A DNA stretch of 64,000 nucleotides from Streptomyces sp. NBC_01689 (GTDB taxonomy: Bacteria; Actinomycetota; Actinomycetes; Streptomycetales; Streptomycetaceae), in NCBI RefSeq assembly GCF_036250675.1, contig NZ_CP109592.1:9424001-9488000 (forward strand), read 5' to 3'. How positions within the stretch are numbered: position 1 is the stretch's first letter; the number at the start of each line of letters is the position of its first letter. The notes under the pieces were generated by a model. The model had not been told where the DNA came from. It was given only the letters and a program-made list of their open reading frames with translations, and searched no databases. A program made the translations under genes and the position numbers. Shown piece after piece: positions 3 to 21,045 of the stretch.

Positions 3-1025
3 GTGAGCAACGAGGAGAACACCCCGGTGCACGGAGGACCGGGGTCGACCGCAGTGAGCCGCGGCGGTCGGGCCGACGCCATCGTGGTCGAGGACGTCCG
101 CCGCACCTACGGCGACCGGCGAGGCCGCCCGGCCCGTGAGGTGGTCGCGCTGGACGGTGTCAGCCTGCGGGTCGCGTCCGGCGAGGTGCACGGCCTGCTC
201 GGCCCGAACGGCGCGGGCAAGACCACGCTGTGCAAGATCCTCACCACGACCCTGGTACCCACGACCGGCTCGGCACGGGTGCTGGGGCTGGACGTGGTGC
301 GCGATTCGCGTGCCGTCAGACGGTCGATCGGGCTCGTCTTCGGCGGCGACCGAGGTCTGTACGGGCGGCTCAGCGCACAGGAGAACCTGTGGTTCTGGGG
401 GGCGATGTACGGACTGCGGCGCACCGAACTGCGGTCGCACGCGGCGGCGTTGCTGGACCGGGTGGGCCTGGCGGATCGCGCCGGGTCCCGCGTCGACACG
501 TTCTCACGGGGAATGAAACAACGGCTGCACCTGGCGCGCGGACTGGTCGGCGACCCCCGCGTCCTGATCCTCGACGAACCCACCGTGGGCATGGACCCGG
601 TGGCGGCACTGGACTTCCGCACCCTCATCGGTGACCTCCAACGCGAGGGTAGGACCGTCCTGTTGACCACGCACGACATGGTGGAGGCCGCGGCGGTCTG
701 CGACCGCGTCTCCTTGATCGACCGGGGCCGACTGATCATGACCGAGAGCACCGACGCCGTCGGCCGGCTGCTGTCCCGCTACGAGCGGGTCGTCGCCGAG
801 GAGGTGCCCCTCGACTTGATGCCGCGGCTGGAGACCCTCCCGGGCGTCGTCGCCGTACGGCACGACGCCGGCCGGGTCGAGGTCGAGACGGAGCAGCCGT
901 CCGCCACCTCATCGGTCCTCGGGGTCCTCGCGGCGGCGGGCGTCCACCGGGTCAGCGCCACGCGGCCGGATCTCGGTGAGGTGTATCTCCACCTCGTGGG
1001 CCGACGGGGCATGGCGGTGAGCTGA
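3..1025 (+). CDS. ABC transporter ATP-binding protein (drug/peptide exporter type)
   Basis: This 340-residue ABC ATPase would power export together with the two permeases that follow. The Walker A motif GPNGAGKTT lies at about residues 67-75, the signature FSRGMKQ at about 165-171, and the Walker B LILDEPTVGMD follows. The long, poorly conserved N-terminus and C-terminal extension resemble DrrA/CcmA-type exporters. The gene begins with GTG at the very edge of the window, so a start further upstream cannot be excluded. Its stop overlaps the next ATG (TGATG), indicating translational coupling. Its place in front of a candidate RiPP cluster suggests it exports or confers immunity to the product; that is inference. 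Confidence 0.9.
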   Translation: MSNEENTPVHGGPGSTAVSRGGRADAIVVEDVRRTYGDRRGRPAREVVALDGVSLRVASGEVHGLLGPNGAGKTTLCKILTTTLVPTTGSARVLGLDVVRDSRAVRRSIGLVFGGDRGLYGRLSAQENLWFWGAMYGLRRTELRSHAAALLDRVGLADRAGSRVDTFSRGMKQRLHLARGLVGDPRVLILDEPTVGMDPVAALDFRTLIGDLQREGRTVLLTTHDMVEAAAVCDRVSLIDRGRLIMTESTDAVGRLLSRYERVVAEEVPLDLMPRLETLPGVVAVRHDAGRVEVETEQPSATSSVLGVLAAAGVHRVSATRPDLGEVYLHLVGRRGMAVS

Positions 1026-1792
1026 TGTCCCTCTTCCTGGCATCCCTGCGGTTCCAACTGCGCCTCGCCCCCAGCTCACCCGGCACCCTGCAGGTCTGGG
1101 CCACCGCACCGTTGTTCACCGCGGTCTTCCTGTCGATCGCCGAGCACGCGGGACGCACGGACCTCACGTCCTACGCGATCGTCGCGCCGACGCTCATGGG
1201 CCAGTGGGCGCTGGCCCTCGGCATCGCTGGTGAACTCATCACCGAGGAGCGCAGCCAAGGCACCCTGGAGGCGGTGATCGCGACACCCTGCCGGCTGTCG
1301 GTGGTCGTCGTGGGCCGGATCTGCGCCGTCAGCCTGCTCGGGATCTCCGCGATGGTGGAGGCCTGGCTGGTCGCGGGTCTCGGCTTCGGCCGATGGATCG
1401 CCGTGCCGCACCCCCTCGTCCTGGGCGTCGCGCTCCTTGCCAACGCGGCCGCCATGGCAGGGACCGCGAGCATCCTGTCGTCGCTCTTCGTGCTGATGCC
1501 GTCCGCGCGCATCGTGCAGAACACGCTGAACTACCCGCTGTACCTGCTCAGCGGGGTGCTCGTACCGCTGTCGACGCTCCCGGAGTGGCTCAGGCCCTTC
1601 GGCCGCGTCGTGTTCCTGAGCTGGAGCGCCGACCTGTTCCGGTCCGCGCTCGACGGTGCCGCGGTCTCCCGGCCGGCCGAGCGGATCGCCGTCGTCCTGG
1701 TGCTCGGGCTGTCCGGTTATGCCATCGGAGCGTTCCTGCTGGACCGCGTGCTGCGCCGCGTCCGCCGGCTGGGGACCCTCACGCACACATGA
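1025..1792 (+). CDS. ABC-2 type transporter permease
   Basis: This 255-residue protein has about six hydrophobic segments and the pattern of an ABC-2 permease. It contains an ELITEERSQGTLE motif in the cytoplasmic loop and the late LLSGVLVPLSTLPEWL segment typical of DrrB-like subunits. The ATG lies inside the stop of the ATPase gene, and its own TGA overlaps the ATG of the second permease. The three genes are therefore one coupled transport operon, encoding a heteromeric exporter with two different membrane subunits. Confidence 0.88.
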   Translation: MSLFLASLRFQLRLAPSSPGTLQVWATAPLFTAVFLSIAEHAGRTDLTSYAIVAPTLMGQWALALGIAGELITEERSQGTLEAVIATPCRLSVVVVGRICAVSLLGISAMVEAWLVAGLGFGRWIAVPHPLVLGVALLANAAAMAGTASILSSLFVLMPSARIVQNTLNYPLYLLSGVLVPLSTLPEWLRPFGRVVFLSWSADLFRSALDGAAVSRPAERIAVVLVLGLSGYAIGAFLLDRVLRRVRRLGTLTHT

Positions 1793-2601
1793 GAGCAGAC
1801 GTGTATCCCTCCGCACTCCACCTCGTACGTTACGGATTCCTCAACGCCGCGGCCGACTTCAGGGCCACCTACACCTGGCGGAGCTGGCTGTTCGGCTGGC
1901 TCGGCCGGATGCTCGCCCAGGTGCTGTTCTTCACCGGGCTGGGCCGGGTCGTGGACCAGCCGGGCGCGGCGCGGTACCTGGCGCTCGGCAACGCGCTGAT
2001 GACCTGTGTCGTCGACACCATGGCCGTCGTCGCGACGACGAGCGGGGAACGCAGGGCCGGCACGCTCTCGCTCCTGGTGGCCAGCCCTGCCGACCCGGTG
2101 TGGGTGTTTGTCGGACGCAGCGTGCACTGGCCGGTCAGCGGAGTGGCCACCGCGCTCGTGGCCCTGTTCGGCCTCGGCCCGTTCTTCGGCGTCACGTGGA
2201 GCCCGGCGCAGGTGCCGCTCGTGGTGTTCCTGACCGTCCTCACCGCACTGGGCACCTACTGCGTCGGTCTCTTTCTGGCCGTACTGGTGGTCAACGTGCC
2301 CCGGCTGCGCAACGTGGTCTCCAACTGGGCCTACCTGGGGATGATGGCGTTCTCAGGTGTGCAGGTGCCGGTCGGCTTCTGGCCGCGAGGCGTCGGGGCG
2401 GCGGTCCAGGCGGTGCCCCTGACCCACACCCTGAAGGCCCTCAGAGCCCTCGGCGACCACCGGTCCACCGCGCAGGTCCTCACGCCCGTCCTGCCCGCGG
2501 TGCTGACCGGCGCGCTGTGGCTGGCCGCGGCGGTCGTCACGTTCAGGTGGCTGGTCGCGGTGCCCGCCCGCCGGGCGGGCACCCTGGACCTGTCCGGCTG
2601 A
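1789..2601 (+). CDS. Second ABC-2 type transporter permease
   Basis: This 270-residue integral membrane protein is the second permease of the exporter. The start is the ATG at 1789 inside an ATGA overlap with the upstream gene; a longer frame from 1393 only overlaps the upstream gene. It has about six hydrophobic stretches, a conserved RRAGTLSLLVASP loop and the late GVQVPVGFWPRGV region, both typical of ABC-2 permeases. It pairs with the 1025-1792 product and the ATPase. It meets the opposite-strand gene at 2616 tail to tail. Confidence 0.87.
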   Translation: MRADVYPSALHLVRYGFLNAAADFRATYTWRSWLFGWLGRMLAQVLFFTGLGRVVDQPGAARYLALGNALMTCVVDTMAVVATTSGERRAGTLSLLVASPADPVWVFVGRSVHWPVSGVATALVALFGLGPFFGVTWSPAQVPLVVFLTVLTALGTYCVGLFLAVLVVNVPRLRNVVSNWAYLGMMAFSGVQVPVGFWPRGVGAAVQAVPLTHTLKALRALGDHRSTAQVLTPVLPAVLTGALWLAAAVVTFRWLVAVPARRAGTLDLSG

Positions 2602-2615
2602 GCGGACGACAGCGG

Positions 2616-3317
2616 TCAGCGGCGGGCCGGACGCCCGCCGCCGACGCAGCCGCACGGAGTGTCCGTCGCCGGCCACTGCTCGCGCAGCCGCGCGGTGAGA
2701 ACCTCGGTCGCGGCGTCGACCGACGCGAAGTAGTCCTCGGTGGAGACGCCGGGCGCGGGGTCCAGGCCCAGATCGAGCACGGGGTAGGTGTGCCCGCTCC
2801 GCCCGCAGCTCAGGTCGCAGGAACTCAGCACGACCCGCACCGGCGCCGGAACGTCCGGCGCCGCCGCGCGCACGGACCGGCACAGAGCGGCCGCGGCCGC
2901 CTCGAACTCGCCCCGGGTGCGCGGCAGTACACCGACCCGGCGCCGGCCGGGCACGAGCGACGGGGAGCTGTACGCGTGCCCCTGGCAGCTGTCGTACGTG
3001 GCGAGTCGCCAGGCGCCCGTGGTCAGCGTGTCGACCAGCGGCCACACGCCTTCCTCGATGGCGGCACGCCACTGGGGGTGGGCGGGGTCCAGATCATCCG
3101 CCTCGTGGATCCCCGGCAGCCCGACAGTGTTGATGTTGCCGTCCGCGCTCCTGCGCAACCGGGCATCGCGGCGCGGCACGTCGGGCGCGTTCCACCTGCC
3201 GAGGAATTCCGCGACATCGGGCATGACATTCGGGAAACGGGACCTCCGGCCGAGCGTGCGGCAGTGCGAGAAATCCCCGTAGGGCCAGGCCGCGGTCTCC
3301 TCTTCGGTACGTGTCAA
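2616..3317 (-). CDS. Uncharacterised Cys/His-rich protein
   Basis: I do not recognise this 233-residue protein. The start is a TTG supported by GGGGAGG five bases upstream; no ATG or GTG is better placed. Features include a TYDSCQGHAYSS motif in the middle, an SSCDLSCGRSGH stretch and a C-terminal PCGCVGGG, so cysteines recur in pairs and could bind metal or a thiolate. No signal peptide or membrane helix is seen. It lies between the exporter and the sugar dehydrogenase, divergent from the latter, and so is probably part of the cluster. Its function is unknown. Confidence 0.7.
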   Translation of the reverse strand: MTRTEEETAAWPYGDFSHCRTLGRRSRFPNVMPDVAEFLGRWNAPDVPRRDARLRRSADGNINTVGLPGIHEADDLDPAHPQWRAAIEEGVWPLVDTLTTGAWRLATYDSCQGHAYSSPSLVPGRRRVGVLPRTRGEFEAAAAALCRSVRAAAPDVPAPVRVVLSSCDLSCGRSGHTYPVLDLGLDPAPGVSTEDYFASVDAATEVLTARLREQWPATDTPCGCVGGGRPARR

Positions 3318-3459
3318 AACGTCCTCCCCTTTCCGGTGGTCTGCGGTGACCGGGCGATCCTAACGGCGGGAGAACCAGAAGCGGCGAGCCTTTCGTCCCC
3401 GGCGGGCCGAGAGTGCGTATTCACGCAGCGCCGAAGACCGTACATTCCCATTCCGGGTT

Positions 3460-3574: not shown

Positions 3575-4834
3575 GTGGCGGAACAGTACGACCTCGCTGT
3601 CGTCGGACTCGGTTACGCCGGGCTGCCCCTGGTCGTCGCGGCTGCCCGCAACGGCATGCGGGTCGCCGGTTTCGATCTCGACGCCACGCGAGTCAGCACC
3701 CTGGCCCGAGGGCTCAGCCACGTGGACGACATCTCCGACGAGGAGGTCGCCGAGGCACTGGCCACGGGCTTCACCCCGACCACCGATCCGGACGTCATCG
3801 CCGGGGCGGCCGCCGTCACCATCTGCGTCCCCACACCGCTGCGCGGCTCGGTCCCGGACCTGACCGCCGTCCTGGACGCCGCCCACCTGGTGGCACCGAG
3901 ACTGCGCGCGGGAGCACTCGTGGTCCTGGAGTCGACCACCTACCCGGGCACCACCACCGACGTGCTGCTGCCCGTACTGGCGCGGCCCGGCCGGGTGGTC
4001 GGCGAAGACTTCCATCTGGCGTTCTCCCCGGAGCGCGTCGACCCGGGGAACCCCGCCTTCGGCCTGCACAACACCCCGAAAGTGGTCGGGGGAGTCACCG
4101 CCCGGTGCGCGGAGGCCGCGACCACCCTGTACGAACGCATGGTGCAGAAGGTGGTGGCCGTCAGCACTCCCGCGGCGGCCGAGCTCACGAAGCTGCTGGA
4201 GAACACCTACCGCCAGGTCAACATCGCGCTCGTCAACGAGTTGGCGGTGTACTGCGACGGGCTCGGCGTGGACGTGTGGGAGGTCGTCGCCGCGGCCGGC
4301 ACCAAACCGTTCGGCTTCCAGTCCTTCTGGCCCGGCCCCGGCGTCGGCGGCCACTGCATTCCCGTCGACCCGGGATATCTGGCCTTCAGCGGACGCTCCG
4401 CCGGCCGCCCGCTGCGGCTGACGGAACTGGCACAGGAGGTGAACGACGGGATGCCCGCCTATGTCGTGGACCGCATCGCGCGTCTGCTCAACGACCGTGG
4501 ACGCAGCGTCCGCGGCACCAAGGTCCTGCTGCTCGGCGTGACCTACAAACCGGACATCGCCGACGGCCGCGGTTCCCCCGCGGTCCCCGTGGCCGAACTG
4601 CTGCTCGACCTCGGTGCCGAAGTCCGGTTCCACGACCCCTATCTCAGGACACTGCGGCTGAACGGGCGCAGTCTGCCCACGGAGACCTCGCTCGACGCGG
4701 CGGTCGCCGACGCCGATCTCGTCGTGCTGCTCCAGCCGCACCTCGACTACGACCTCCCCGTGATCGCGGACACCGCGCCGCTGCTCTTCGACACCAGCGG
4801 CCGGACCGTGGGCGCGCGCGTCGTGCATCTCTGA
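3575..4834 (+). CDS. Nucleotide-sugar dehydrogenase (UDP-GlcNAc/ManNAc 6-dehydrogenase type)
   Basis: The 419-residue enzyme is predicted to oxidise C6 of an NDP-sugar to the uronic acid with two NAD+. The N-terminal Rossmann motif GLGYAGLP is at residues 11-18, ENTYRQVNIALVNE lies in the middle domain, and the catalytic Cys261 sits in VGGHCIPVDP, the version typical of UDP-HexNAc dehydrogenases rather than UDP-glucose dehydrogenase. The C-terminal domain has GVTYKPDIADGRGSP. The GTG start at 3575 is chosen because AAGGAG ends 8 nt upstream and the Rossmann fold begins at once. It may supply an activated sugar acid to the glycosyltransferase at 7353. Confidence 0.9.
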   Translation: MAEQYDLAVVGLGYAGLPLVVAAARNGMRVAGFDLDATRVSTLARGLSHVDDISDEEVAEALATGFTPTTDPDVIAGAAAVTICVPTPLRGSVPDLTAVLDAAHLVAPRLRAGALVVLESTTYPGTTTDVLLPVLARPGRVVGEDFHLAFSPERVDPGNPAFGLHNTPKVVGGVTARCAEAATTLYERMVQKVVAVSTPAAAELTKLLENTYRQVNIALVNELAVYCDGLGVDVWEVVAAAGTKPFGFQSFWPGPGVGGHCIPVDPGYLAFSGRSAGRPLRLTELAQEVNDGMPAYVVDRIARLLNDRGRSVRGTKVLLLGVTYKPDIADGRGSPAVPVAELLLDLGAEVRFHDPYLRTLRLNGRSLPTETSLDAAVADADLVVLLQPHLDYDLPVIADTAPLLFDTSGRTVGARVVHL

Positions 4835-5031: not shown

Positions 5032-5187
5032 ATGTCCGAGAAGAACGAGATCTCCTTCGACGCGTTCGTCGACGCCGTGAAGTCGTACGACCTGGAATCC
5101 GTCAGCGCCAAGGACACGGCCCACTCGTCCGCGGTCTCGGTGAAGCCGTGGGAGCACGTCACCGAGCAGACCTCGGACGCCGTCTGA
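5032..5187 (+). CDS. Candidate RiPP precursor peptide, 51 residues
   Basis: This small gene encodes an acidic, soluble 51-residue peptide beginning MSEKNEISFDAFVDAVKSYD and ending KPWEHVTEQTSDAV. A GGAAGAGG ribosome-binding site lies 7-8 nt before the ATG, and a plausible promoter lies at 4953-4982. There is no signal peptide. The N-terminal half looks helical, as expected of a leader. The C-terminal half is Ser/Thr/Val/Ala-rich with a single Trp40 and nearby Glu41 and His42, plausible targets for a radical SAM maturase and hydroxylases. It has its own promoter and a strong hairpin directly after it (5204-5236), and it heads the tailoring operon. The precursor role is inferred from size, context and the maturase genes; the core boundaries are unknown. 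Confidence 0.75.
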   Translation: MSEKNEISFDAFVDAVKSYDLESVSAKDTAHSSAVSVKPWEHVTEQTSDAV

Positions 5188-5299: not shown

Positions 5300-6661
5300 A
5301 TGCTCAACACGTCCCCGTGGGCGGCCCGTGCGGACCGCGAGGTGGAGTCCGAGGTCCTGATCCTCGGGGGAGGACTGGCCGGGCTCGCCGCCGGGTCCCT
5401 CCTCGGCCACCGCGCCACCGTCGTCGAGGCGCAGGAGCGTCCCGGAGGTCTGGTGCGCACCGAACGCATCGGGGACTACTGGTTCGATCGCGTCATCCAC
5501 CTTCTCTACTTCAGCCACCCTGATGTCGAGAACCGGGTGCGCGCACTGCTGGGCGACGTGCTGCAACCCTGTCCGCCCGACGCCCGGGTCGAGACCGCGC
5601 GAGGTGCGACCCGATTCCCCGTCCAGCTGAACCTGAACGGTCTGCCCGCCGAGGTGCGCACCGCGTGCCTCGAGGACCTGCGGAGCGCGCAAGAGCGGCC
5701 GGCGGCGCCGGACAACTACGAGGAACTGCTGCTGAGCTCCTTCGGCCGCACTCTGTGCGAGCTGTTCTTCTTCCCGTACAACCGCAAGCTCTGGCGGCGT
5801 CCGCTCAGCGGTCTCTCGGCCTCCGGATTCCACTGGAACCTGACCCGGCCGAGCGTCGCGGAGATCGAGCGCGGCGCCAACGCCCCCCGGCCGACGGGTG
5901 GTTACAACGCACGGGGCTGGTACCCCAGGCCCGCACGAGGCGACTGGCGCGGTATGGAGGTGCTGTCCCGTGCCCTGGCCGGCCGCGTCGGCGACCTGCG
6001 GCTGCGGCACGTCGTCACCGCCGTCGACCCGGACTCCCGCACGGTACGGACGCGCTCGCCCGAAGGCGTCACCGACTTCCACTACACGCGCGACTGCCTG
6101 TCCACGCTGCCACTGCCCACCATCGTGTCGCTGTGCGCGCGGGCACCCGCCGCCCTGGTCGAGGAGTGCGGCGACCTCCCGCGCAACCGGGTCCGTTCGG
6201 TGGCCCTCGCCGTGCGCGGGCCACGCCCCCGGGACACCGGGCACTGGCGGTACTACACCCGCGAGGACGTCCCCTTCACCCGCCTCGTCTTCATGACGGA
6301 GTTCGACCCGGACATGGCGCCCGCCGACGGCTGGGGCGTCCTCGCCGAAGTGCTCGAACCCTCCGAGGGGCCCCGCGCCTCGGACGAGTCCCTGGTGGCC
6401 GACGTCCGGCGAGGCGTCGCGGAGGTCGGACTGCTGGCTCCCGGCAGCCGGATCGTCGGATCGAGCGTGTACACCTCCGACCCGGGCTACGTCGTCTTCA
6501 CCGATGCCACCCGGGAGACCACCGCCGAAGCCACCCGGTTCCTCACCTCCCGCGGCATCACCCCGCTGGGCCGCTACGGCACGTGGACCTACTCCTCCAT
6601 GTCCCAGGTCATGGAGGAGGCGTTCGCATGGGCGGCCGAGAGCCCGGCACTGACGGCATGA
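5300..6661 (+). CDS. FAD/NAD(P)-binding protein, UDP-galactopyranose-mutase/amine-oxidase-like
   Basis: The 453-residue protein starts with a dinucleotide-binding motif ILGGGLAGLAAGSLL and the ERPGG segment common to the protoporphyrinogen oxidase, amine oxidase and UGM families. The FFPYNRKLW stretch resembles the substrate loop of UGM-like proteins. It could isomerise or oxidise an NDP-sugar, or oxidise an amine on the peptide; the sequence does not decide between them. ATG 5300 follows GAGGTGG. Its TGA overlaps the next ATG (ATGA), so it is coupled to the kinase. It lies just after the attenuator and is probably transcribed by read-through from the precursor promoter. Confidence 0.8.
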   Translation: MLNTSPWAARADREVESEVLILGGGLAGLAAGSLLGHRATVVEAQERPGGLVRTERIGDYWFDRVIHLLYFSHPDVENRVRALLGDVLQPCPPDARVETARGATRFPVQLNLNGLPAEVRTACLEDLRSAQERPAAPDNYEELLLSSFGRTLCELFFFPYNRKLWRRPLSGLSASGFHWNLTRPSVAEIERGANAPRPTGGYNARGWYPRPARGDWRGMEVLSRALAGRVGDLRLRHVVTAVDPDSRTVRTRSPEGVTDFHYTRDCLSTLPLPTIVSLCARAPAALVEECGDLPRNRVRSVALAVRGPRPRDTGHWRYYTREDVPFTRLVFMTEFDPDMAPADGWGVLAEVLEPSEGPRASDESLVADVRRGVAEVGLLAPGSRIVGSSVYTSDPGYVVFTDATRETTAEATRFLTSRGITPLGRYGTWTYSSMSQVMEEAFAWAAESPALTA

Positions 6662-7356
6662 CCCAGACAGCAGACAGGGAGATCTCCTTGCCCAGCACCA
6701 CGAACCACGGCTTCCTCGCGCTGGAGGGCGTCGACGGATCCGGGAAGACCACGACCGCACGCCTGATCGCCGAACACGTACGGGCCCAAGGGCGCCCCCT
6801 GTCCCGCATCGGACAGCACTCCTGGCTCGACCCGCAGGCGGCCCGCGTCATCATCGACGTACGCGAGGACCGGCCCCACCGCCACAGCCACCAGGACATC
6901 ACGCGGGCGTACTTCCGCGACAAGCAGCTCCAGGCCGGCGCCATCGGTCAACTCCTGCGCGACCGCAGCGTGCTGTCGGACCGGTACATCTTCAGCGACG
7001 CGGCGTACCTGGAGGTTCTCTACGGCATCCCGGCCCGCGAGACCCTGGACCGCCACCACGCGCACGGCACACTCCTGCCCGACCTCATCGTCTACCTCGA
7101 CGTCCCCGTCAATCTGGCCGCGGACCGTGTCGTCGCCCGCGGCAAGAGCATGCGGCACTACGAGAACAGCTACACCCTCGACAAGGTCAGCACCGTCTAC
7201 CGTTCCCTGCTGCTGGACGACCCGCCGCCCTACCTCCCCCCGGTCCACGTCTTCCGCAACACCACCGGTGCGCACGAGGACAGCCGGCTCCTGGACCTGT
7301 TCCGCGCGGTGGACGCCCCTCCGGCGCCCCGCCGCCAGTTGCTGGAGACGTCGTGA
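6658..7356 (+). CDS. Thymidylate-kinase-like P-loop kinase
   Basis: The 232-residue protein has the nucleoside/nucleotide kinase pattern: P-loop EGVDGSGKTT at about residues 23-32, the DRYIFSDAAYLE segment (equivalent to the DR(Y/F) motif of TMP kinases), YLDVPVNLAADRV, and a LID-like region with Arg and Lys. Length is close to bacterial TMP kinases. The start is the ATG inside the ATGA overlap; the longer frame overlapping the upstream gene is spurious. A housekeeping thymidylate kinase inside a tailoring operon is unlikely, so it probably phosphorylates a pathway intermediate such as a nucleotide or sugar derivative, or the peptide. The next gene's GTG overlaps its stop. Confidence 0.83.
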   Translation: MTQTADREISLPSTTNHGFLALEGVDGSGKTTTARLIAEHVRAQGRPLSRIGQHSWLDPQAARVIIDVREDRPHRHSHQDITRAYFRDKQLQAGAIGQLLRDRSVLSDRYIFSDAAYLEVLYGIPARETLDRHHAHGTLLPDLIVYLDVPVNLAADRVVARGKSMRHYENSYTLDKVSTVYRSLLLDDPPPYLPPVHVFRNTTGAHEDSRLLDLFRAVDAPPAPRRQLLETS

Positions 7357-12835: not shown

Positions 12836-13813
12836 ATGTTCCTGCTTCCCGTCATCGACGACGACGAGACCCAGAACCGCTTCTGGAACGCCTCCCTGGA
12901 CGGCCGGGCCATCCACTCCTTCCTGCTGTGGGTCGAGCCGCACAGCAACGCCTGGGCCCGGCGCGCCGCGGAGGGCGCCGGGGGAGCGGCGTCGGCGGTC
13001 ACCCTCGACGAGACCCCCCACGCACTCGGCCGTGCCCTCGTCGGACTCGCCGTGAGCCCGACGGTGACCGTCGACCTCGCGGAGGCGAGCGCCGCGACGG
13101 GCAGCCCGGCGGACGGCCCACGGATCGCGGTCATGACAGGCACGGCCGAGGACGGCGCCCTCCGGCTCCGGCCGGCCGGGCAGCGGGACCGCGAGGCCAC
13201 CGCCGCCGCCCGCCGGATCCTCGACGGGGCCGGCCTCGGATATGTCCTGGACCTCGGCATAGGGGCCGTCGTCCTCGGCGACGACGGGGACGGCCTCCCC
13301 TCCGCCGGGACCACGGAGCTGTGTGACGTGGCGTGGCCCGGCCGGCCGGGTGCGGACCCGGGCGCCTTCGCGGAGGCGCTGCTCCGCGAAGGCGCCCGGT
13401 CGTGGACGAGGCAGTGGCTGCGCACCGAGGAGGCGGTGGGCACGCGCCGCGAACACCTCCCGGCGGCGGACCGGACCTGGCTCGCCGACGTCCTCGCCGA
13501 CTCCTTCGCCTTCCAGCTGTACGACCGGCTCGCGGCGCGGGAGCCCCGGGACCCGGCGTCGCCGGTGGCCCGGCGCCGGCAGGAGATCTACGACGCACTG
13601 CGCGCCCTGCGGGCCGAACTGCCCGACCGGGTGGGCCGGACGGTCGGCATGGGCATCGTCGCCGAACTGATCGGAACGACCTACCCCTGCTGGAACCGGC
13701 GGCAGTTCGCCGTCAAATCCCCCTTCGACTACATCCGCGAGATCAGGCCGCTGACGGACGCCGAGAAGGCGGAGCACCTGAGCCGGTGGGCCGCCCCCAC
13801 CGCCGTACGCTGA
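12836..13813 (+). CDS. Unknown protein of the radical SAM/HExxH operon
   Basis: I do not recognise this 325-residue protein. It begins MFLLPVIDDDETQNRFW, has an alternating alpha/beta-looking first half rich in Ala and Gly, and an Arg-rich helical second half ending QFAVKSPFDYIREIRPLT. There is no signal peptide, membrane segment or obvious metal motif. It starts 13 nt after the radical SAM stop and lies 32 nt before the HExxH gene, so it is co-expressed with both. It could be a recognition or scaffold subunit, or a further modifying enzyme. The ATG at 12836 follows GAGGGCGGAA. Confidence 0.75.
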   Translation: MFLLPVIDDDETQNRFWNASLDGRAIHSFLLWVEPHSNAWARRAAEGAGGAASAVTLDETPHALGRALVGLAVSPTVTVDLAEASAATGSPADGPRIAVMTGTAEDGALRLRPAGQRDREATAAARRILDGAGLGYVLDLGIGAVVLGDDGDGLPSAGTTELCDVAWPGRPGADPGAFAEALLREGARSWTRQWLRTEEAVGTRREHLPAADRTWLADVLADSFAFQLYDRLAAREPRDPASPVARRRQEIYDALRALRAELPDRVGRTVGMGIVAELIGTTYPCWNRRQFAVKSPFDYIREIRPLTDAEKAEHLSRWAAPTAVR

Positions 13814-13845: not shown

Positions 13846-14850
13846 ATGATCCAGACCGAGACCTCCGAGACCGCCGGACCCGACACCGCCGAGGACGGCA
13901 CGTCCACCGCGCTGCTGCGAGCCGCTCTCACCGAACGACTCGTGGAACACCGTACGGACCGCGCCCGCACCCTCGTGGCCAGCCTCCGCGAACTGGTGCC
14001 GGCGACAGACCTCACCGGCCCCGACGCGGCCCCGGACGCCTTCGACAACGCCGTTCTGCACCACGCCTTCCAGCAGGCACGGATCGCCGCACGGACCCGC
14101 GACGCCGACCGCGCGATGCGGGCCGTACGCCTGTGGCAGAACCGCGCGGCGCTGCGTGCCCGGGCCGTGCCCACGGCGGTCGGCCCCGTCCTGGTGGTAC
14201 GGGCCGAGGACTGCGCCGCCGTCGACGACGACCGCCTCGGCAGCCAGATGTACCTGCTCGAGAACCTGCCCGAGCAGGACGCGGGGGAGCGGGAACAGAT
14301 CGCACGCACCCTCAACCGGGCCGTGGACGCCGCACTCGCGGTCGGCAGCGACGTGCTGCGCTCCTCCACGGCCGTCGTCATCCGGACCGGGACCGTCCCG
14401 CTGGGCGCGACCTGCCGCAGCTACACGTTCGACTTCCTGCCGAGCACCGTCGTCCTGAACTGGACCGACGAACCGCTGCGCCTGGGCGAGACCCTCGTCC
14501 ACGAAGCCACGCACTCGTGGCTCAACGAATCCCTCGCGTCCGAAGGGGTGGTCTTCGAGGACGGCGGACCCCGGTTCCACTCACCGTGGAAGAACGAGGA
14601 CCGCCCGGTGTTCGGCATCGTGCACGCGGCCCTCGCCTTCGCGAACGTCATCCACTACCTCTCCCGCATCCAGCCGGCGAGCGACGACGGCTCCCAGTTG
14701 GCCGCCGTCCTGCGCCGACGCCTCGAGGTCGAACTGGAATCGCTGGAGATCGGCCACGCGGCAGCCTCGGAATGCTTCGACCAGGTGGACAGCGACCGCC
14801 TCCGTGCCTACCTGCGCTCCGCGGTCGCCGACGCGCGGCGCGCGGTCTGA
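13846..14850 (+). CDS. HExxH-motif protein, candidate peptide hydroxylase
   Basis: The 334-residue protein has HEATH at residues 219-223 in a helix preceded by GETLV, then FHSPWKNEDRPVFGIVHAAL with a further conserved His near 260. This layout matches the HEXXH proteins that accompany radical SAM maturases in RiPP loci (TIGR04267-type). Members have been proposed or shown to be iron/2-oxoglutarate beta-hydroxylases of peptides rather than proteases; I recall this from the literature and cannot check it here. No signal peptide is present, consistent with cytosolic modification. ATG 13846 follows GGAAGGACC. It is the third gene of the 11668-16047 operon. Confidence 0.82.
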   Translation: MIQTETSETAGPDTAEDGTSTALLRAALTERLVEHRTDRARTLVASLRELVPATDLTGPDAAPDAFDNAVLHHAFQQARIAARTRDADRAMRAVRLWQNRAALRARAVPTAVGPVLVVRAEDCAAVDDDRLGSQMYLLENLPEQDAGEREQIARTLNRAVDAALAVGSDVLRSSTAVVIRTGTVPLGATCRSYTFDFLPSTVVLNWTDEPLRLGETLVHEATHSWLNESLASEGVVFEDGGPRFHSPWKNEDRPVFGIVHAALAFANVIHYLSRIQPASDDGSQLAAVLRRRLEVELESLEIGHAAASECFDQVDSDRLRAYLRSAVADARRAV

Positions 14851-14862: not shown

Positions 14863-16047
14863 GTGACGGGCCCGCCGTACCGCAACCCGGGCACACCACC
14901 CGGCCTCACCGCCGAGGATCTGCGTGACCCGGTGCGGACCCTGCTCGCCGAACCCACGGCGCGCGTACGCGACTTCGCCTGCGAACCGATCGGCTACGAG
15001 AGCTGGAGCAGAGCGAGCGACGGCCTGTACGTGGTGCGCGGAACGGCCTCGTCCGACCAGGGTGACCACACCTGGGAGGCCGTGCTCAAACAGATCCGGC
15101 ACCGCCGCTGGCAGCCGAGCCGCCATGACCTGGCCCGTCAGATCGACGACGGGGGCGACGGCCCGGGGGACTGGGCGTACTGGCGGCGCGAGGCTCTGGC
15201 CCTCGCCTCGCCGGTGCCCGGCACCGCGGCCGGCCGCTTCGCGGCGGTCCGGTGCCTCGGCATCGTGCCGCTGCCGGGAGACCGGATCCGCCTGTGGCTG
15301 GAGAAGGTGGACGGAAGGCCCGGCGACGACTGGGCGGCCGGTGAACTCCTCGACAGCGCCGAGGCCCTGGGAGGCTTCCACGCCCGCTCACAGCGGCAAC
15401 GGTCCGCCGACCGGACCTGGTGGTGCAGGCCCTTCGTGGAACAGGCCGCACTCCAGGCCCGGTTCACCCTGATCGAGCGGGCCGCGTCCGCCGCGACCTG
15501 CGCCGACCCGGCGCTGCGCAGGCTGTTCCCGCGGACGACCGTCACCGCCCTGCAGTCTCTCGCGCGCGGCCACGATCGGGCCGTACGCACGCTGCGGTCC
15601 CTGCCGGCCGGTCTGGTGCACCGGGACCTGACCCCCCGGAACCTGTTCCGGTCCGGCGGGCGCACGGTGGCGGTCGACTGGGGCCAGGTGGGGCAGGGAC
15701 CGGCCGGTGAGGACCTGGCCACCCTCGTCCTGTCGTCGGCGGCCGCCGCGCGTCTGGGGCCCGAGGACACGCTCGCCCTCGCCGGAGCGGCCGCCGCGCG
15801 TCATCGCGCGGGGGCGGAAGCGGCCGGCGGCCCGTACGACCCGGACTCCGTCGCGCTCGCGTTCAGGCTCGTGGCTGCCTACCACTTCGGACTGCCGCTG
15901 GTCCGGCTCGCCGAGCGACTGCTCGCCCGGGACGGCGCGTCCCGGCGGCAGGCGGCGGAGGACGCCGACACGCGACGTCGCGCCGACGTCATGACGACGC
16001 TGCTGGAGGCGGCACAGCCGGACCTGCGGGACCTCACGCGCCGGTGA
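14863..16047 (+). CDS. Phosphotransferase-family kinase, second in the cluster
   Basis: The 394-residue protein has LVHRDLTPRNLF with the catalytic Asp and metal-ligand Asn, then VAVDWGQVGQGPAGEDLA, which supplies the second metal-binding Asp. This marks it as an aminoglycoside/choline-kinase-fold phosphotransferase. It is only distantly similar to the kinase at 9363 and is longer at the N-terminus. GTG 14863 follows GAGGGCGG, 12 nt after the HExxH gene. It may phosphorylate a hydroxyl group introduced by the hydroxylases, or confer resistance. Confidence 0.8.
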   Translation: MTGPPYRNPGTPPGLTAEDLRDPVRTLLAEPTARVRDFACEPIGYESWSRASDGLYVVRGTASSDQGDHTWEAVLKQIRHRRWQPSRHDLARQIDDGGDGPGDWAYWRREALALASPVPGTAAGRFAAVRCLGIVPLPGDRIRLWLEKVDGRPGDDWAAGELLDSAEALGGFHARSQRQRSADRTWWCRPFVEQAALQARFTLIERAASAATCADPALRRLFPRTTVTALQSLARGHDRAVRTLRSLPAGLVHRDLTPRNLFRSGGRTVAVDWGQVGQGPAGEDLATLVLSSAAAARLGPEDTLALAGAAAARHRAGAEAAGGPYDPDSVALAFRLVAAYHFGLPLVRLAERLLARDGASRRQAAEDADTRRRADVMTTLLEAAQPDLRDLTRR

Positions 16048-16076: not shown

Positions 16077-16152
16077 GGACCTCAGACGGTGTCCGTGGGT
16101 CGCAGCGCCGTCATGGACCTCAGAGGGTGTCCGTGGGACGCAGCGCCGTCAT
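16077..16152. repeat. 38-bp tandem duplication
   Basis: Two copies (16077-16114 and 16115-16152) differ at two positions. The second copy contains the stop codon of the phosphatase at 16120 and the first lies just beyond it, so the coding end appears to have been duplicated. Because 38 is not a multiple of three, the extra copy is out of frame. Confidence 0.85.
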
Positions 16153-16695
16153 GGACAGGCGCCCGCCCTCCAGCCGCAGCCTGTACCAGCTGCCCCGCCC
16201 CACGACCGGCGGCAGCGCACAGCCGTGGGCCGCCGCCAGATACGTCAGGACGGCGGGGAGGGTGTCTCCGTGCGAACAGGCGACCGCGTGACCGCCCCGA
16301 TGACGGGCGGCGATCTCCACCAGGGCGCCCAGGGCGCGGCCGGCCGCCCACGCACCACCGAGGGACGGGCCGATCGGCCGGAAGACGCCCTCCGTCCACG
16401 CGGCCGGCTCGCCGAACCCCCGGGCCTCCCGCAGCCGGTCCTCGTCCACCACCGCCAGACCTGAGGCCTTCGCCAGTGGGACGACCGACTGGCGGCAGCG
16501 CAGCGAGGGGCTGCTGTACACGGCGTCGACGCCCGCTCCGAACACCTCGGCCAGGACGTCGGCCTGTCGCATCCCCTCCTCGCTCAACGGACGCAGATCG
16601 TCGTGGCCTCTCCACGTCTCGCGCGGGGAGGACGAGCAATGGGGGACCAGATCCAGCACAACCGTGCACGCATTGTCGAACATACGGCGCATCAT
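16120..16695 (-). CDS. Histidine phosphatase-superfamily protein with altered RHG motif
   Basis: The 191-residue protein aligns with the SixA/phosphoglycerate-mutase-like family: LRPLSEEGMRQADVL, YSSPSLRCRQSV and the second catalytic box ACSHGDTLPA (His142) are all present. In the first box the usual Arg-His is replaced by Pro18-His19 (VPHCSS), so the nucleophilic His is kept but the phosphate-binding Arg is lost. Three ATGs lie close together at the start; the most upstream is given, and 16692 or 16683 are possible. The gene lies opposite the biosynthetic operons. It may remove phosphate groups added by the cluster kinases, if active. Confidence 0.75.
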   Translation of the reverse strand: MMRRMFDNACTVVLDLVPHCSSSPRETWRGHDDLRPLSEEGMRQADVLAEVFGAGVDAVYSSPSLRCRQSVVPLAKASGLAVVDEDRLREARGFGEPAAWTEGVFRPIGPSLGGAWAAGRALGALVEIAARHRGGHAVACSHGDTLPAVLTYLAAAHGCALPPVVGRGSWYRLRLEGGRLSMTALRPTDTL

Positions 16696-16825: not shown

Positions 16826-17788
16826 ATGGAATTGGTCGACAGAACACCGCAGGAAATGGCCGGAGAGTTCCTGGCGAACGGTGCGCCGTCTCTCTGGCCG
16901 GACCTCCCGCACCTCGACGGCATGTCACCGGACCGCATCACCGCGCTTCCCTCCCTGCCCTACGGCGACCCGGCGTTCAGCGGCCGCCTGCTGCGCGAGC
17001 AGACCGACACCACGACGACGGACTCCTCCCGCCCTCCGGACCTCGTCGAACGCCAACTCGCCTGGCTGCGTGCCGCGCTGCCCACCTGGCGGGCGGGCCA
17101 GGTCCACCACCCGCTGTGCGGGCCGGGAAACTACGCGACCGCCCTGCACGACCACGGCATGACCTCCTACGTCGGCATCGACGCGGGCCCCGCCGTCGTC
17201 GACCACGCCCGCCGCCGATTCGCCGGGCAGGACGACGTCCGCTTCCTGCTCGGCGACGCCCTTGACCCGGCACTGTCGGCGCCCGACAACGCGTACGACA
17301 CCCTGCTTCTCACCTACGACGCCGCCAACTTCTTCGCCCCGCACACGCTGAGGCCCTTTCTCCGGGCGCTCGTGGAACGGTTGCGCGGAGGAGGCACCGT
17401 CGTCCTCGACCTGCGGCTCGCCGAGGACGGCATCCGCGGATTCGACGAGGGACGTCAAGTCCACCGCCGCCGACACGGATCGGTCTTCCGGGACGGCCCC
17501 CACCTGCTGCTCAGCGAGGGCTTCGTCGCCGCCGGCGGAGCCCTGCTCGGCCACCGGATCATCGCCGTGGGCGAGGGCACGGAACCCCGCGAGCCCGAGG
17601 TCTTCCACTCGGTCCTGCACGTGCCGACCGCCGAACAGCTCGCCGGTCACCTCCGTTCGGCGGGGCTCGAAGTATCCGTGATCGGGCGGCCCTTCGCCGA
17701 CTCGTCGGACCCGAACCTCGCCCGGCACCTCGTCGCGGCCCACCGGCCGACCCCCACACCCCACTCACCTCCGTGGAGGCAGTCATGA
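16826..17788 (+). CDS. Class I SAM-dependent methyltransferase
   Basis: The 320-residue protein has a Rossmann methyltransferase core. HHPLCGPGNYATALHDHG stands in for motif I, YVGIDAGPAVVDHAR provides the acidic SAM-ribose residue, and TLLLTYDAANFF lies at motif II-III. The glycine motif is atypical (L-C-G-P-G rather than D-x-G-x-G). An 80-residue N-terminal extension precedes it. ATG 16826 has GGAG 5 nt upstream and opens the third operon of the cluster. The gene ends in an ATGA overlap with the metallohydrolase/Rieske gene, so the two are coupled. The likely acceptor is the peptide or its sugar, position unknown. Confidence 0.85.
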   Translation: MELVDRTPQEMAGEFLANGAPSLWPDLPHLDGMSPDRITALPSLPYGDPAFSGRLLREQTDTTTTDSSRPPDLVERQLAWLRAALPTWRAGQVHHPLCGPGNYATALHDHGMTSYVGIDAGPAVVDHARRRFAGQDDVRFLLGDALDPALSAPDNAYDTLLLTYDAANFFAPHTLRPFLRALVERLRGGGTVVLDLRLAEDGIRGFDEGRQVHRRRHGSVFRDGPHLLLSEGFVAAGGALLGHRIIAVGEGTEPREPEVFHSVLHVPTAEQLAGHLRSAGLEVSVIGRPFADSSDPNLARHLVAAHRPTPTPHSPPWRQS

Positions 17789-19395
17789 AGATCACGTTCC
17801 TGGGGCACGCGGGCGCCCTCGTGGAGGCCGGCGACGTCAGACTGGTCTGCGACCCGTGGTTCTCCGCCGGCGGCGCCTTCCTCTCCGGCTGGCACCAACT
17901 GCCCGACAACAGCCACTGCCTCCCCCTGACGTACGACGCGACCCATGTGTACGTCTCGCACGATCACCAGGACCACTTCGACGCCGAGGTGCTCAACGCA
18001 CTCGACCCGTCGGTCACCCTGCTGATGCCCGACTACCCCCTGCCGAGCTGGAAACGGCTCGTCACCACACTGCGCGGCCCGGCACCCGTGCTCCTGCGCG
18101 ACCAGGAGGTGTGGCGGGCGGGGCCGCTGCGCCTGCGCCTGATCCACTCCCCGACGCCCCGGCACCAGGACTCGGCCCTCGTCATCGAGGACACCGACAC
18201 CGGTCAGGTCGTCGTCAACCTCAACGACTGCCAGGTCGACCGGGACCAGCTCCGCGCCATCCGGCGGCTTCATCCGCGCGTCGACGTCGTGATGGCCCAG
18301 TTCTCGGGTGCCACGTGGTTCCCGTTCGCCTACTCCTTCCCCGAGCGGGACCAGGTGGAGGCCGCGGCGCGCAAGAAGGTCAACTCCATGCGCCGCTGGA
18401 CCCGTTACATGCAGGCGCTCGACCCGCGCCACGCCGTCGCGTTCGCCGGGCCGCCCGCTCTGCTCGATCCCGAACTCTCCCCGCACTTCTTCGCGGAGTC
18501 GTCCGTCTTCACCACACCCCCCGAACTGCTCGCCTGGCTGCGGGAAGAACACCCCGGCCTGGCGGAGCGCACCACGGCCCCGCTGCCGGGCGACGAACTC
18601 GACGTGGCTTCCGGCGAGTTGACCGCCGACCCGAAGATCCGGGAGGAGTTCGACTGGGACGACCTGCCGGCGTACACGGAGGCCTACGCCCGCCGGCGGG
18701 CACCCGCCATCGCCGAGGTGCTCGCCCGCCACCCCGCACCGCGGAGCAGCCTCTACGAGGAGTTCACCGCCCACTTCACCGCTCTGTTCCAGGCGGGCGA
18801 GAGACTGTGCAGGGCCGTCGACGCCGTCGTCGCCTTCGACGTCCAGGGGCCGGGCGGCGGGTTCTGGCTCGTCGACTTCCGTAGCCTGAGGGTCAGTGAG
18901 GGAAGCGGACCCACGACAGACCCGCACGACTACCGGTTCACGCTTCCCTCACGGTTCGTGCCGGACATCCTGGACGGCGGCATGAGCTGGGAGGAGTTCT
19001 TCTTCTCCTTCCGCTTCACCGCCTGGCGTCCCGGTATCGGCGCCTACAACGAGGAACTGATGTCGGTGCTGCGCTGCAGCGCACCCGACGACCTGGCCGA
19101 GTACCTCGACCGGACGGCGCAGGACCGGGAACCGGGCGAGTTCCGGCTGGAGGCCGCGAGCGGGACCTACCTGGTCTCCGACACCTGCCCGCACCTCGGC
19201 GCGCGACTCGGACCACAGGACTACGACCCGGAACTGGAATCGGTGGTCTGCCCCCAGCACGGCTGGCGTTTCGCCCTTCCGGACGGCGCCTGTTCCAACG
19301 GCCGGGCACGGCTCGGCGTCACCCCACAGTCCGCCGACCGCGACACCCCTTCGGACGCCACCCGGCGTCCCCGAGAGAGGCAGGAACAGCAGTGA
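17785..19395 (+). CDS. Metallo-beta-lactamase-fold / Rieske [2Fe-2S] fusion protein
   Basis: The 536-residue protein joins two redox-relevant modules. Residues 1 to about 260 are an MBL fold of the UlaG type with SHDHQDHFD (HxHxDH, residues 58-66) and a later NLNDCQVDRDQ segment. The C-terminal 100 residues carry a Rieske motif, Cys468-x-His470 and Cys489-x-x-His492, in CPHLGARLG and CPQHGWRF. CMP-Neu5Ac hydroxylase combines the same two modules in the opposite order, so an oxygenase with a non-heme metal site fed by the Rieske centre is a fair guess. ATG 17785 overlaps the preceding TGA, with GGAGG just upstream. It is coupled to the oxygenase at 19392. Confidence 0.85.
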   Translation: MKITFLGHAGALVEAGDVRLVCDPWFSAGGAFLSGWHQLPDNSHCLPLTYDATHVYVSHDHQDHFDAEVLNALDPSVTLLMPDYPLPSWKRLVTTLRGPAPVLLRDQEVWRAGPLRLRLIHSPTPRHQDSALVIEDTDTGQVVVNLNDCQVDRDQLRAIRRLHPRVDVVMAQFSGATWFPFAYSFPERDQVEAAARKKVNSMRRWTRYMQALDPRHAVAFAGPPALLDPELSPHFFAESSVFTTPPELLAWLREEHPGLAERTTAPLPGDELDVASGELTADPKIREEFDWDDLPAYTEAYARRRAPAIAEVLARHPAPRSSLYEEFTAHFTALFQAGERLCRAVDAVVAFDVQGPGGGFWLVDFRSLRVSEGSGPTTDPHDYRFTLPSRFVPDILDGGMSWEEFFFSFRFTAWRPGIGAYNEELMSVLRCSAPDDLAEYLDRTAQDREPGEFRLEAASGTYLVSDTCPHLGARLGPQDYDPELESVVCPQHGWRFALPDGACSNGRARLGVTPQSADRDTPSDATRRPRERQEQQ

Positions 19396-20033
19396 TCGAC
19401 TTTGCGGCCATGGAACGGCAACTGGACGAGGCGTCCCCGTCCTGCTTCCGCGCCGACCCCTTCCCCCACTACGTCTGGGAGGGAATCCTTCCCCGGGAAG
19501 TACTGCGGGCCGCCGCGGACGCCTATCCGGACACCTCCCTCATGACCGCGAAACCCGGCATCCCCCGATGGCACTCCCAGAACCTCGGCCTGGCCGGGCC
19601 GGAGCTGCGCGACGTGTGCACGGCTCTGCTCGGCGACGACCTCGCCGCGTTCCTCGCGAAGGTGACCGGGGTCGAGGGCCTGCGCACCGAGCCGGACGGC
19701 GACTGGGGCAGCTACCGTCTCGCCGGCCACGGCGCCGTCCACCACGCTCACGTCGGCTCCAACCGGCACCCTGAGACCGGCCGTCTTCGCCGGTACTCGT
19801 TGTTCACGTACCTCAGCGAGGGCTGGCAGCCGCAGGACGGCGGATGGCTCGAACTGGGCGAGCCCGCAGGGGAGGTGCCGACCGCCAGGATCCTGCCCGT
19901 GTTCGGCCGCAGCGTCCTCATCGAGACGACGGCGCGGTCACTGCACGGCATCTCGGCCGTGCGGGTGGCGCCGCCCGCCACCCGCAAGACCGTCACGGTC
20001 CACTTCTGGACGGAACCGGAGGACGGCGCATGA
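19392..20033 (+). CDS. Fe(II)/2-oxoglutarate-type oxygenase, prolyl-4-hydroxylase-like
   Basis: The 213-residue protein resembles the prolyl-4-hydroxylase/Ofd1 fold. It has HHAHVGSNRHPETG followed by RRYSLFTYLSEGWQPQDGGWLEL, then GRSVLIETTARSLHGI with the distal metal His185 and Arg198, which probably binds 2-oxoglutarate. The usual HxD pair appears as H118-A-H120, so the carboxylate ligand may be replaced by His. GTG 19392 overlaps the upstream TGA. With the HExxH and Rieske proteins it makes three possible oxygenases in one cluster. The likely role is hydroxylation of the peptide. Confidence 0.8.
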   Translation: MIDFAAMERQLDEASPSCFRADPFPHYVWEGILPREVLRAAADAYPDTSLMTAKPGIPRWHSQNLGLAGPELRDVCTALLGDDLAAFLAKVTGVEGLRTEPDGDWGSYRLAGHGAVHHAHVGSNRHPETGRLRRYSLFTYLSEGWQPQDGGWLELGEPAGEVPTARILPVFGRSVLIETTARSLHGISAVRVAPPATRKTVTVHFWTEPEDGA

Positions 20034-20046
20034 CGGGACACACGCC

Positions 20047-21045
20047 GTGAAGCACCGACGGCTGGGCCGCAGCGGCCTGCACGTGAGTGAGATCGCCTAC
20101 GGCAACTGGATCACCCACGGGGGCCAGATCGACACCGACATGGCGCTCGCGTGCGTACGGACCGCGCTGGACCGCGGCATCACCAGCTTCGACACGGCCG
20201 ACGGGTACGCGTTCGGCGCCGGGGAGGAGATCCTGGGCCGCGCCCTGGCGGGGGAGCGCCGCTCCAGCGTCGAGATCTTCACCAAGGTGTACTGGCCCGT
20301 CGGCCCGGGGCCGAACGACCGGGGTCTCTCGCGCAAACACATCATGGAGACCATCGAGGTGTCGCTGCGCCGGCTCGGCACCGACTACGTGGACCTCTAT
20401 CAGGCCCATCGCTTCGATCACGGGACACCGCTGGAGGAGACGATGACCGCCTTCGCCGATGTCGTCCGCTCGGGCAAGGCGCTCTACATCGGTGTCTCCG
20501 AGTGGCGGGCGGAGGAGATCCGCGCCGCGCAGTCCCTCGCCAGGGAACTGCACGTCCCGCTGGTCTCCAACCAGTGCCGGTACTCCGCCCTGCACCGCGT
20601 CATCGAGGCCGAGGTGATACCGGCCTGCCTGGACGAGGGGTTGGGACAACTGGCCTTCTCCCCCCTGGCACAAGGTGTTCTCACGGGAAAGTACGTGCCC
20701 GGACGGCCGCCGCCGCCCGGGTCACGGGCCACCGACTCCAAGGGCTTCGGCCGGCACTTCATGGAGAAGGTGCTGCGCGAGGACATCCTCGGACGCGTGC
20801 AGCGACTGCTGCCGCTGGCCCGTGAAGCGGGCGTCCCGCTGCCGGTCCTCGCACTCGCCTGGGTCCTGCACGAGCCGAACGTGGCGAGTGCGATCATCGG
20901 CGCCGCGAGACCCGAGCAGATCGCCGCCAACACCGCGGCCTGTGAGGTCACCCTGGACGCGGGCCTCAAGGAGGCGGTGGATGCCGTCCTCGACCCGGTC
21001 GCGCTCAAGGACCCGGAGCTCACGACCAGTCCGGGCCGCACCTGA
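20047..21045 (+). CDS. Aldo/keto reductase
   Basis: The 332-residue protein is a typical AKR of the Kv-beta/YhdN type. The catalytic tetrad is visible as Asp49, Tyr54, Lys80 and His121 in FDTADGYAFG, FTKVYW and LYQAHRFD, and the NADPH-binding loop SAIIGAARPEQI lies near the C-terminus. GTG 20047 is 13 nt after the oxygenase stop, so it closes the same operon. It may reduce a carbonyl formed by one of the oxygenases or on the sugar. The 190 nt after the stop contain degenerate GTCGGTGTT-type repeats and no gene. Confidence 0.88.
   Translation: MKHRRLGRSGLHVSEIAYGNWITHGGQIDTDMALACVRTALDRGITSFDTADGYAFGAGEEILGRALAGERRSSVEIFTKVYWPVGPGPNDRGLSRKHIMETIEVSLRRLGTDYVDLYQAHRFDHGTPLEETMTAFADVVRSGKALYIGVSEWRAEEIRAAQSLARELHVPLVSNQCRYSALHRVIEAEVIPACLDEGLGQLAFSPLAQGVLTGKYVPGRPPPPGSRATDSKGFGRHFMEKVLREDILGRVQRLLPLAREAGVPLPVLALAWVLHEPNVASAIIGAARPEQIAANTAACEVTLDAGLKEAVDAVLDPVALKDPELTTSPGRT

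Follow-up and report, generated by a model that had tools for sequence, protein, structure and literature searches.

The window analyzed here, 64,000 nucleotides of Streptomyces sp. NBC_01689 (positions 9424001-9488000 of contig NZ_CP109592.1, in a genome of 9.96 Mb), raises the question of whether a 51-residue open reading frame (ORF) near its start, g06, is the substrate of the enzymes encoded around it. An earlier note on this DNA had proposed that positions 3 to 21045 hold a candidate new pathway to a ribosomally synthesized and post-translationally modified peptide (RiPP). We place the probability of this reading at roughly 0.8: taken as a whole, the product would be derived from the g06 peptide and modified by a radical S-adenosylmethionine (SAM) enzyme, g13, and an HExxH-motif hydroxylase, g15. 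The product of the locus is very probably a RiPP whose class has no description in the open literature searched, with a prior description being possible in subscription papers, which mostly lay outside that search.

The probable precursor peptide and its co-occurring enzymes

The ORF at 5032-5187, the precursor candidate of the earlier note, proved to be a real and strongly conserved gene. The cluster that surrounds it, here called type A, was found in four other species, namely, S. rhizosphaerihabitans, S. minutiscleroticus, Streptomyces sp. HM190, and S. galbus. Across these species, the g06 peptide is 98 to 100% identical and is conserved more than any enzyme of the cluster, with values of 93 to 94% for the radical SAM enzyme and about 60 to 94% for the other genes. 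Its codon differences from the window are mostly silent (silent/nonsilent counts of 4/1, 9/0, 6/0, and 4/1). A protein search returned four more g06-like peptides (P0002 to P0005; 72 to 92% identical), of which P0002 and P0005 appear to share contigs with homologues of g04 or g14, two genes of the cluster described below. No Pfam or NCBIfam family matched the g06 peptide. What the locus presents is the general mark of a RiPP, a short gene-encoded precursor conserved beside maturation enzymes.

Querying 392 genomes of the genus with g13 yielded 25 matches at E values of 1e-40 or lower. Three are 93 to 100% identical to g13 (the genome itself, G024, and G378), and the remaining 22 are 39 to 47% identical. 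Around each of these 22, 16 to 20 kb was examined, and types were set by gene content, with families read from one example each of types B and C. Seven loci belong to type B and 14 to type C, and one (L058) is a truncated type B remnant without a precursor. A precursor with the motif TAHxS is present in all 21 complete loci, together with g04, HExxH, 2-oxoglutarate (2OG)-dependent oxygenase, and thymidylate-kinase-like genes. The type B content comprises NUDIX, 210-amino-acid (aa), 2OG, thymidylate-kinase-like, protein-kinase-like, and beta-lactamase-like proteins; that of type C comprises a nucleotidyltransferase-like protein (assigned by eye), a 2-hydroxyacid dehydrogenase, TylF, NUDIX, phosphoenolpyruvate (PEP)-mutase-like, and thymidylate-kinase-like proteins, and a 253-aa protein. 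In L058 (G028:C476), a radical SAM fragment is directly followed by the beta-lactamase-like gene, the precursor and middle genes being missing through decay or an assembly gap.

Beyond the genus, a radical SAM search in 394 genomes of the taxonomic class (E ≤ 1e-70) returned only the genome itself, one more type C locus (L063), and G784, a member of another family, and a g04 search in 396 genomes of the phylum returned only the genome itself at E ≤ 1e-10. These searches gave so few matches that, judged by the samples, the peptide class is rare in other genera. The G784 locus, L062, is assigned to type D, and its precursor, MATKPDFDAFVQAVRTFELDDATIEATAHTSAVQAEVMEQVRTRLETPSA, keeps TAHTS and a similar leader, with Met in place of the Trp found elsewhere. 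Homologues of g14 (30% identity), g08 (45%), g13 (51%), g15 (42% over 91 residues), and g18 (38%) accompany it, as do a 2OG gene, a TylF gene, a NUDIX-kinase fusion, and a C39 peptidase-transporter. Common to types A to D are therefore the precursor peptide, the radical SAM enzyme, the alpha-ketoglutarate (aKG)-HExxH hydroxylase, which exceeded its NCBIfam cutoff in one example of each type, and the thymidylate-kinase-like protein. Co-occurrence around the peptide, which the earlier note had named as the check on its proposal, thus holds in four further species, in 21 of the 22 more divergent loci within the genus, and in a second family. No nonribosomal peptide synthetase or polyketide synthase family was found among the proteins scanned with family libraries. 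On these two grounds, the RiPP candidate stands.

Alignment of 11 precursors revealed F12, T29, A30, H31, S33, and W40 as invariant, besides the start. In the 21 complete type B and C loci, type D, and type A, the leader reads F..(V/L) followed by AV or close to it, and the core TAH[S/T]S is invariant. It should be noted that the precursors of L034 (type B), L037 (type C), and L062 were gene-called before the motif was used, whereas most others were found by the pattern TAH.S; the motif is therefore independent evidence only for these three. A Trp nine residues after the His was present in 24 of 25 tabulated precursors, a set in which T, A, H, [ST], and S are given by the search pattern itself and from which a leader filter excluded L035 and L038, both part of the 11-sequence alignment.

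Gene content and extent of the cluster

Between positions 3 and 24489 of the window, 23 genes were assigned. The Pfam scan covered these and four genes upstream of the window, and the NCBIfam scan covered g01 to g20.

3..1025, +, g01: ABC exporter ATPase, DrrA-like (PF00005, 2.3e-30; TIGR01188, 253 bits, under the cutoff of 312; 82% identity in G024)
1025..1792, +, g02: ABC-2 permease (PF01061; syntenic)
1789..2601, +, g03: ABC-2 permease (PF01061; syntenic)
2616..3317, -, g04: putative radical SAM partner domain (YDSC.GH invariant in nine sequences)
3575..4834, +, g05: nucleotide-sugar dehydrogenase (TIGR03026, 385.8 bits; cutoff, 189.8)
5032..5187, +, g06: precursor peptide, 51 aa (leader with FDAFVDAV, core TAHSSAVSVKPWEHV)
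5300..6661, +, g07: flavin adenine dinucleotide enzyme, UDP-galactopyranose-mutase-like (best PDB matches UDP-galactopyranose mutases, 3.3e-24; Pfam Amino_oxidase)
6658..7356, +, g08: thymidylate-kinase-like P-loop kinase (PF02223, 1.8e-17)
7353..8237, +, g09: GT2 glycosyltransferase (PF00535, 3.7e-27)
8234..9385, +, g10: stand-alone 5-aminoimidazole-4-carboxamide ribonucleotide (AICAR)-formyltransferase domain (PF01808, 1.1e-32)
9363..10403, +, g11: APH-type phosphotransferase (PF01636, 2.7e-14)
10570..11571, +, g12: SDR sugar-nucleotide epimerase/dehydratase (PF01370, 4.3e-33)
11668..12822, +, g13: radical SAM/SPASM enzyme (CxxxCxxC at residues 23-30)
12836..13813, +, g14: aKG-HExxH-fold protein without HExxH (REGAR at the motif site)
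13846..14850, +, g15: aKG-HExxH peptide beta-hydroxylase (TIGR04267, 63.4 bits; cutoff, 40; HEATH at residue 219; ChlH, 8.3e-4)
14863..16047, +, g16: APH-like kinase by motif only (HRDLTPRN, DWG; no Pfam or PDB match)
16120..16692, -, g17: histidine phosphatase (PF00300, 3e-18)
16922..17788, +, g18: methyltransferase (PF13649; type D homologue in L062, 38%)
17785..19395, +, g19: metallo-beta-lactamase (MBL)-fold, SCP2-like, and Rieske protein (PF13483, PF25451, PF00355; HDHQDH and Rieske motifs)
19392..20033, +, g20: 2OG-Fe(II) oxygenase (PF13640, 9.4e-10)
20047..21045, +, g21: aldo/keto reductase (PF00248, 8e-69)
21232..22560, -, g22: 442-aa protein with no role assigned
23152..24489, -, g23: helix-turn-helix and tetratricopeptide-repeat (TPR) regulator (PF01381, TPR; kept in all four species)
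L004 15453-16436, -, upstream: JmjC oxygenase
L004 16530-17573, -, upstream: nucleotidyltransferase candidate (NTP_transf_5 match below cutoff)
L004 18007-19224, +, upstream: M16 peptidase (HVLEH motif)
L005 3221-4006, +, upstream: GNAT-like gene (match below cutoff)

The gene list of the earlier note was right in substance: the exporter, radical SAM, HExxH, MBL-Rieske, 2OG, GT2, sugar-nucleotide, AICAR-formyltransferase-like, and thymidylate-kinase-like genes are all present. Its three oxygenase types were recovered, with the upstream JmjC protein adding a fourth. The gene at 5300-6661 is UDP-galactopyranose-mutase-like, and an amine oxidase assignment was dropped since the best solved relatives are UDP-galactopyranose mutases. 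Adjoining genes overlap in eight pairs, by 1, 4, or 23 bases, which supports the coupled operons it had described.

The cluster is larger than first noted, reaching up to 4.5 kb 5' of the window start and as far as the regulator at 23152-24489. In G024, one of the four type A relatives, all 23 genes are present in unchanged order and orientation. The stretches compared in the other three start at g02 or g04, and every gene from there through g21 is present; the S. galbus stretch showed no g22, which is therefore not a core gene. Upstream, the M16 peptidase, GNAT-like, and exporter genes are consecutive with overlaps of 4 bases, and the NTP_transf_5 protein, M16 peptidase, GNAT-like gene, and g01 are kept in all three species checked (G024, HM190, and S. 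galbus). The JmjC gene is present in G024 and S. galbus and was not found in the upstream stretch compared in HM190; further upstream, no match was seen in the relatives compared. Among the 32 window genes after position 20000, only g23 had a match in the 20 kb searched in HM190 and S. galbus, which span g23 itself plus some 18 kb past it. This gene is the last conserved one and marks the cluster end. An S-adenosyl methyltransferase gene (PF04672; 25781-26773, -) lies past this boundary, outside the cluster.

Predicted maturation and tailoring enzymes

The radical SAM enzyme g13 carries the CxxxCxxC motif and the cysteines for auxiliary cluster II (AuxII; C336, C339, C345, and C366), and it lacks those for auxiliary cluster I (AuxI). 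All five type A enzymes are without exactly four cysteines (T272, E279, S294, and A349 in the window), which are present in all seven others aligned (three type B, three type C, and one type D). With the type D sequence aligned, the lost four correspond to C255, C261, C276, and C330 of the anaerobic sulfatase-maturating enzyme and the kept four to its C317, C320, C326, and C348. Passages of one study identify these residues as ligands of auxiliary clusters I and II and judge the loss of AuxI with retention of AuxII very unlikely for several SPASM enzymes (PMC5491770); the role of AuxII is called unclear in part of another (PMC9012708). ChlB, the best solved relative of g13, is likewise without cysteines at the AuxI positions and has them at the AuxII positions when aligned to the type D enzyme, so the AuxI-less state is not unique to type A. 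The nearest relatives of g13 seen within the class keep AuxI. Enzymes about 51% identical, with the same core motif in their precursors, differ in whether they carry AuxI ligands beside those of AuxII, which provides a natural test of the roles of AuxI and AuxII.

In types B and C, g04 is fused to the radical SAM C terminus (all six loci with ORFs read), and in type A it is a separate gene. At L054, the radical SAM and g04 matches are about 1.7 kb apart rather than adjacent, and the radical SAM match of L055 contains one internal TGA. For g04 as TYW3 there is a fold hint, and profile searches gave nothing useful: PF02676 had no match in the genome itself at E ≤ 10 and none in the Pfam scan at 0.01. 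A PqqD-like recognition domain was discarded, as no such family matched and secondary structure prediction gave a mixture of helices and strands; no PqqD-like fold appeared among the matches listed, an absence that carries no weight. In type D, a nucleotidyltransferase (L062:10375-11469, -; PF01909) has a weak C-terminal PqqD-like match (19.7 bits; cutoff, 23.4), which, if real, would link nucleotidyl transfer to leader binding.

As listed above, g15 exceeds the TIGR04267 cutoff and retains the HExxH motif of aKG-HExxH beta-hydroxylases. Its neighbor g14 has no TIGR04267 match and reads REGAR in place of HExxH, and it shares the predicted fold of g15. A likely role for g14 is that of a noncatalytic partner, and one may ask whether pseudo-enzymes take part in the hydroxylation of peptides; both g04 and g14 would be system-specific partners. 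In profile comparisons between types (the A-D ones partly circular, since the type D sequence was within the type A set), g14 had no convincing match to the type B 210-aa or type C 253-aa proteins. The same comparisons gave no match between the type A NTP_transf_5 protein and the type C nucleotidyltransferase-like protein, itself without a Pfam match.

Among the nucleotide-type enzymes, g08 scored 70.7 bits as a dTMP kinase (TIGR00041), not reaching the cutoff of 83.25. In a PurH alignment, g10 keeps the KH, QSN, GQQ.R, and C-terminal R.F.H motifs, as do three orthologues; the S. galbus orthologue reads KHTSPTG at the KH motif. The similarity of g07 to galactopyranose mutases, together with g05 and g12, suggests a sugar nucleotide in furanose form.

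A PEP-mutase-family gene occurs in all 14 type C clusters (in L037, 13202-14071, -; PF13714, 4.9e-44). The PEP mutase motif is EDKxxxxxNS, and since the L037 protein reads EDS.....NS, a role as a phosphonate enzyme was rejected; the gene may bring phosphonate-like chemistry, or C-C chemistry of another kind, to a peptide pathway.

Proposed product, rival readings, and relation to known systems

From the observations described above (families of the genes, shared gene order, sequence conservation, lost motifs, and fold predictions), we infer every chemical step, and from enzyme families the cross-link, hydroxyl, sugar, phosphate, and formyl decorations. An invariant core His, an HExxH hydroxylase in each type, and a ChlB-related radical SAM enzyme led us to propose a His-x-Ser cross-link together with a beta-hydroxylated His. 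Helped by g04, g13 would cross-link the core, most simply from the imidazole of His31 to the side chain of Ser33 as a three-residue His-x-Ser cyclophane, possibly with Trp40 also involved; this exact link is tentative, its chances being somewhat below even. Paired with g14, g15 would beta-hydroxylate this conserved His in the manner of ChlH, which acts on a cyclophane peptide. Further oxidation may come from the 2OG, MBL-Rieske, and upstream JmjC proteins and a methyl group from g18. An unusual, probably furanose-form sugar nucleotide would be built by g05, g12, and g07 and its sugar transferred to a hydroxyl by g09, glycosylation of the product being about an even bet. Phosphate from the thymidylate-kinase-like and APH-type enzymes and formyl from g10 are weaker suggestions. 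Finally, the upstream M16 peptidase would remove the leader and g01 to g03 would export the product.

Several points weigh against this pathway. The product and its modifications are read from genes. The best 25 of 55 NCBIfam matches include none for which g13 reaches the cutoff. Since g04 had no match in type D at E ≤ 1e-4, it is not universal to the class, and 24 type B to D stretches had no match to g05, g07, g09, g10, or g12 at the same threshold. The type A 2OG gene was unrelated by profile to those of types B and D, and the JmjC gene was not found in HM190; oxidative steps therefore differ. The formyltransferase of purine synthesis, g10, has no explained place in the pathway.

Two rival explanations concern the fate of the peptide. 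It could be a scaffold from which one or two residues (e.g., His) are excised to give a small molecule, as for pyrroloquinoline quinone (PQQ) and mycofactocin. All types share no more of the core than TAH[S/T]S, many tailoring enzymes come from families acting on small molecules, and an M16 peptidase is present. However, type A precursors keep AVSVKPW and HV past TAHxS even at 71 to 75% overall identity, beyond what a one-residue donor would need; we regard excision as unlikely. Alternatively, the radical SAM enzyme could act at the Trp rather than at TAHxS and close a W-x-H triplet (WEH or WQH in type A) into a three-residue cyclophane. The near-constant Trp described above agrees with this, as does a His two residues past it in the five type A precursors aligned. 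In contrast, the six type B and C precursors aligned are without that His, and type D has Met for Trp beside a radical SAM enzyme 51% identical to g13, which lowers W-x-H as a universal link and leaves it rather improbable.

The other two concern the surrounding genes. The AICAR formyltransferase and thymidylate-kinase-like protein could be self-resistance copies of targets instead of tailoring enzymes, and the genome indeed holds separate PurH-like and Tmk-like genes elsewhere. Their identity to g10 and g08 is low (34% and 30%, respectively), and the kinase-like gene recurs in types A to D, whereas the formyltransferase was seen in type A only; we consider self-resistance very unlikely. That the peptide is incidental to a cluster making an unrelated glycoside could account for the several sugar genes, but is scarcely credible given a peptide conserved with maturases across species and families, and sugar genes that had no match in the 24 stretches of the other types. 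A peptide-derived product modified by g13 and g15 is the reading we retain.

Within it, the class might make peptide-borne nucleotide mimics, with the His imidazole as the base, oxidized and cross-linked neighboring carbons or a transferred furanose as the sugar part, and the thymidylate-kinase-like enzyme phosphorylating. This long shot would explain the nucleotide-type enzymes around a TAHxS peptide, namely, the thymidylate-kinase-like protein in types A to D, NUDIX in B to D, AICAR formyltransferase in A, and nucleotidyltransferase-like proteins in A (below the Pfam cutoff), D (above it), and C (by eye only). If our reading is true, the locus stands for a class of RiPPs that share one invariant core and come in at least four natural sets of decorations, a route to unusual peptide chemistry.

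Among the closest known systems is ChlB/ChlH of Chlorogloeopsis, a radical SAM and aKG-HExxH pathway (Morishita 2024 as cited in PMC12636437; PDB 9gm3 and 8s5f). According to passages of that source, the cyclophane is already in place when ChlH hydroxylates His and Asp on it (PMC12636437). As proposed here, a radical SAM enzyme and an aKG-HExxH hydroxylase act on a peptide, and ChlB and ChlH are the best solved relatives of g13 and g15. However, ChlB fuses both activities, whereas the radical SAM enzyme, HExxH-less sister, and HExxH enzyme are separate here and accompanied by about 20 further genes; the likeness is one of enzymes only, the Chl precursor being outside the comparison. Biphenomycin-type pathways with the aKG-HExxH enzyme BpmH, as portrayed in parts of PMC12257519 and PMC12636437, share such a peptide hydroxylase and differ in that no MNIO family turned up among the proteins scanned here.

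The FxsB, YhhB, and DynA cyclophane maturases belong to the same radical SAM/SPASM superfamily as g13, which scored 108, 117, and 102 bits, far under their curated cutoffs of 370, 445, and 450, with a precursor that matches no family. Mycofactocin and PQQ pathways likewise combine a short precursor with a radical SAM enzyme, and g09 resembles the glycosyltransferase MftF (73.9 bits; cutoff, 280). PqqF is an M16-type peptidase. The mycofactocin radical SAM family gave 32.7 bits for g13 (cutoff, 265), and PqqE was not among the matches listed (25 of 55). In the open literature searched, no title or abstract opening describes a TAHxS precursor, and we found no paper joining radical SAM, thymidylate kinase, and precursor peptide or galactopyranose mutase with RiPP. 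The enzyme superfamilies are known; for this kind of precursor, the combination of genes, an AuxI-less variant in an otherwise AuxI-bearing class, and the HExxH-less sister, no earlier account was found in that literature.

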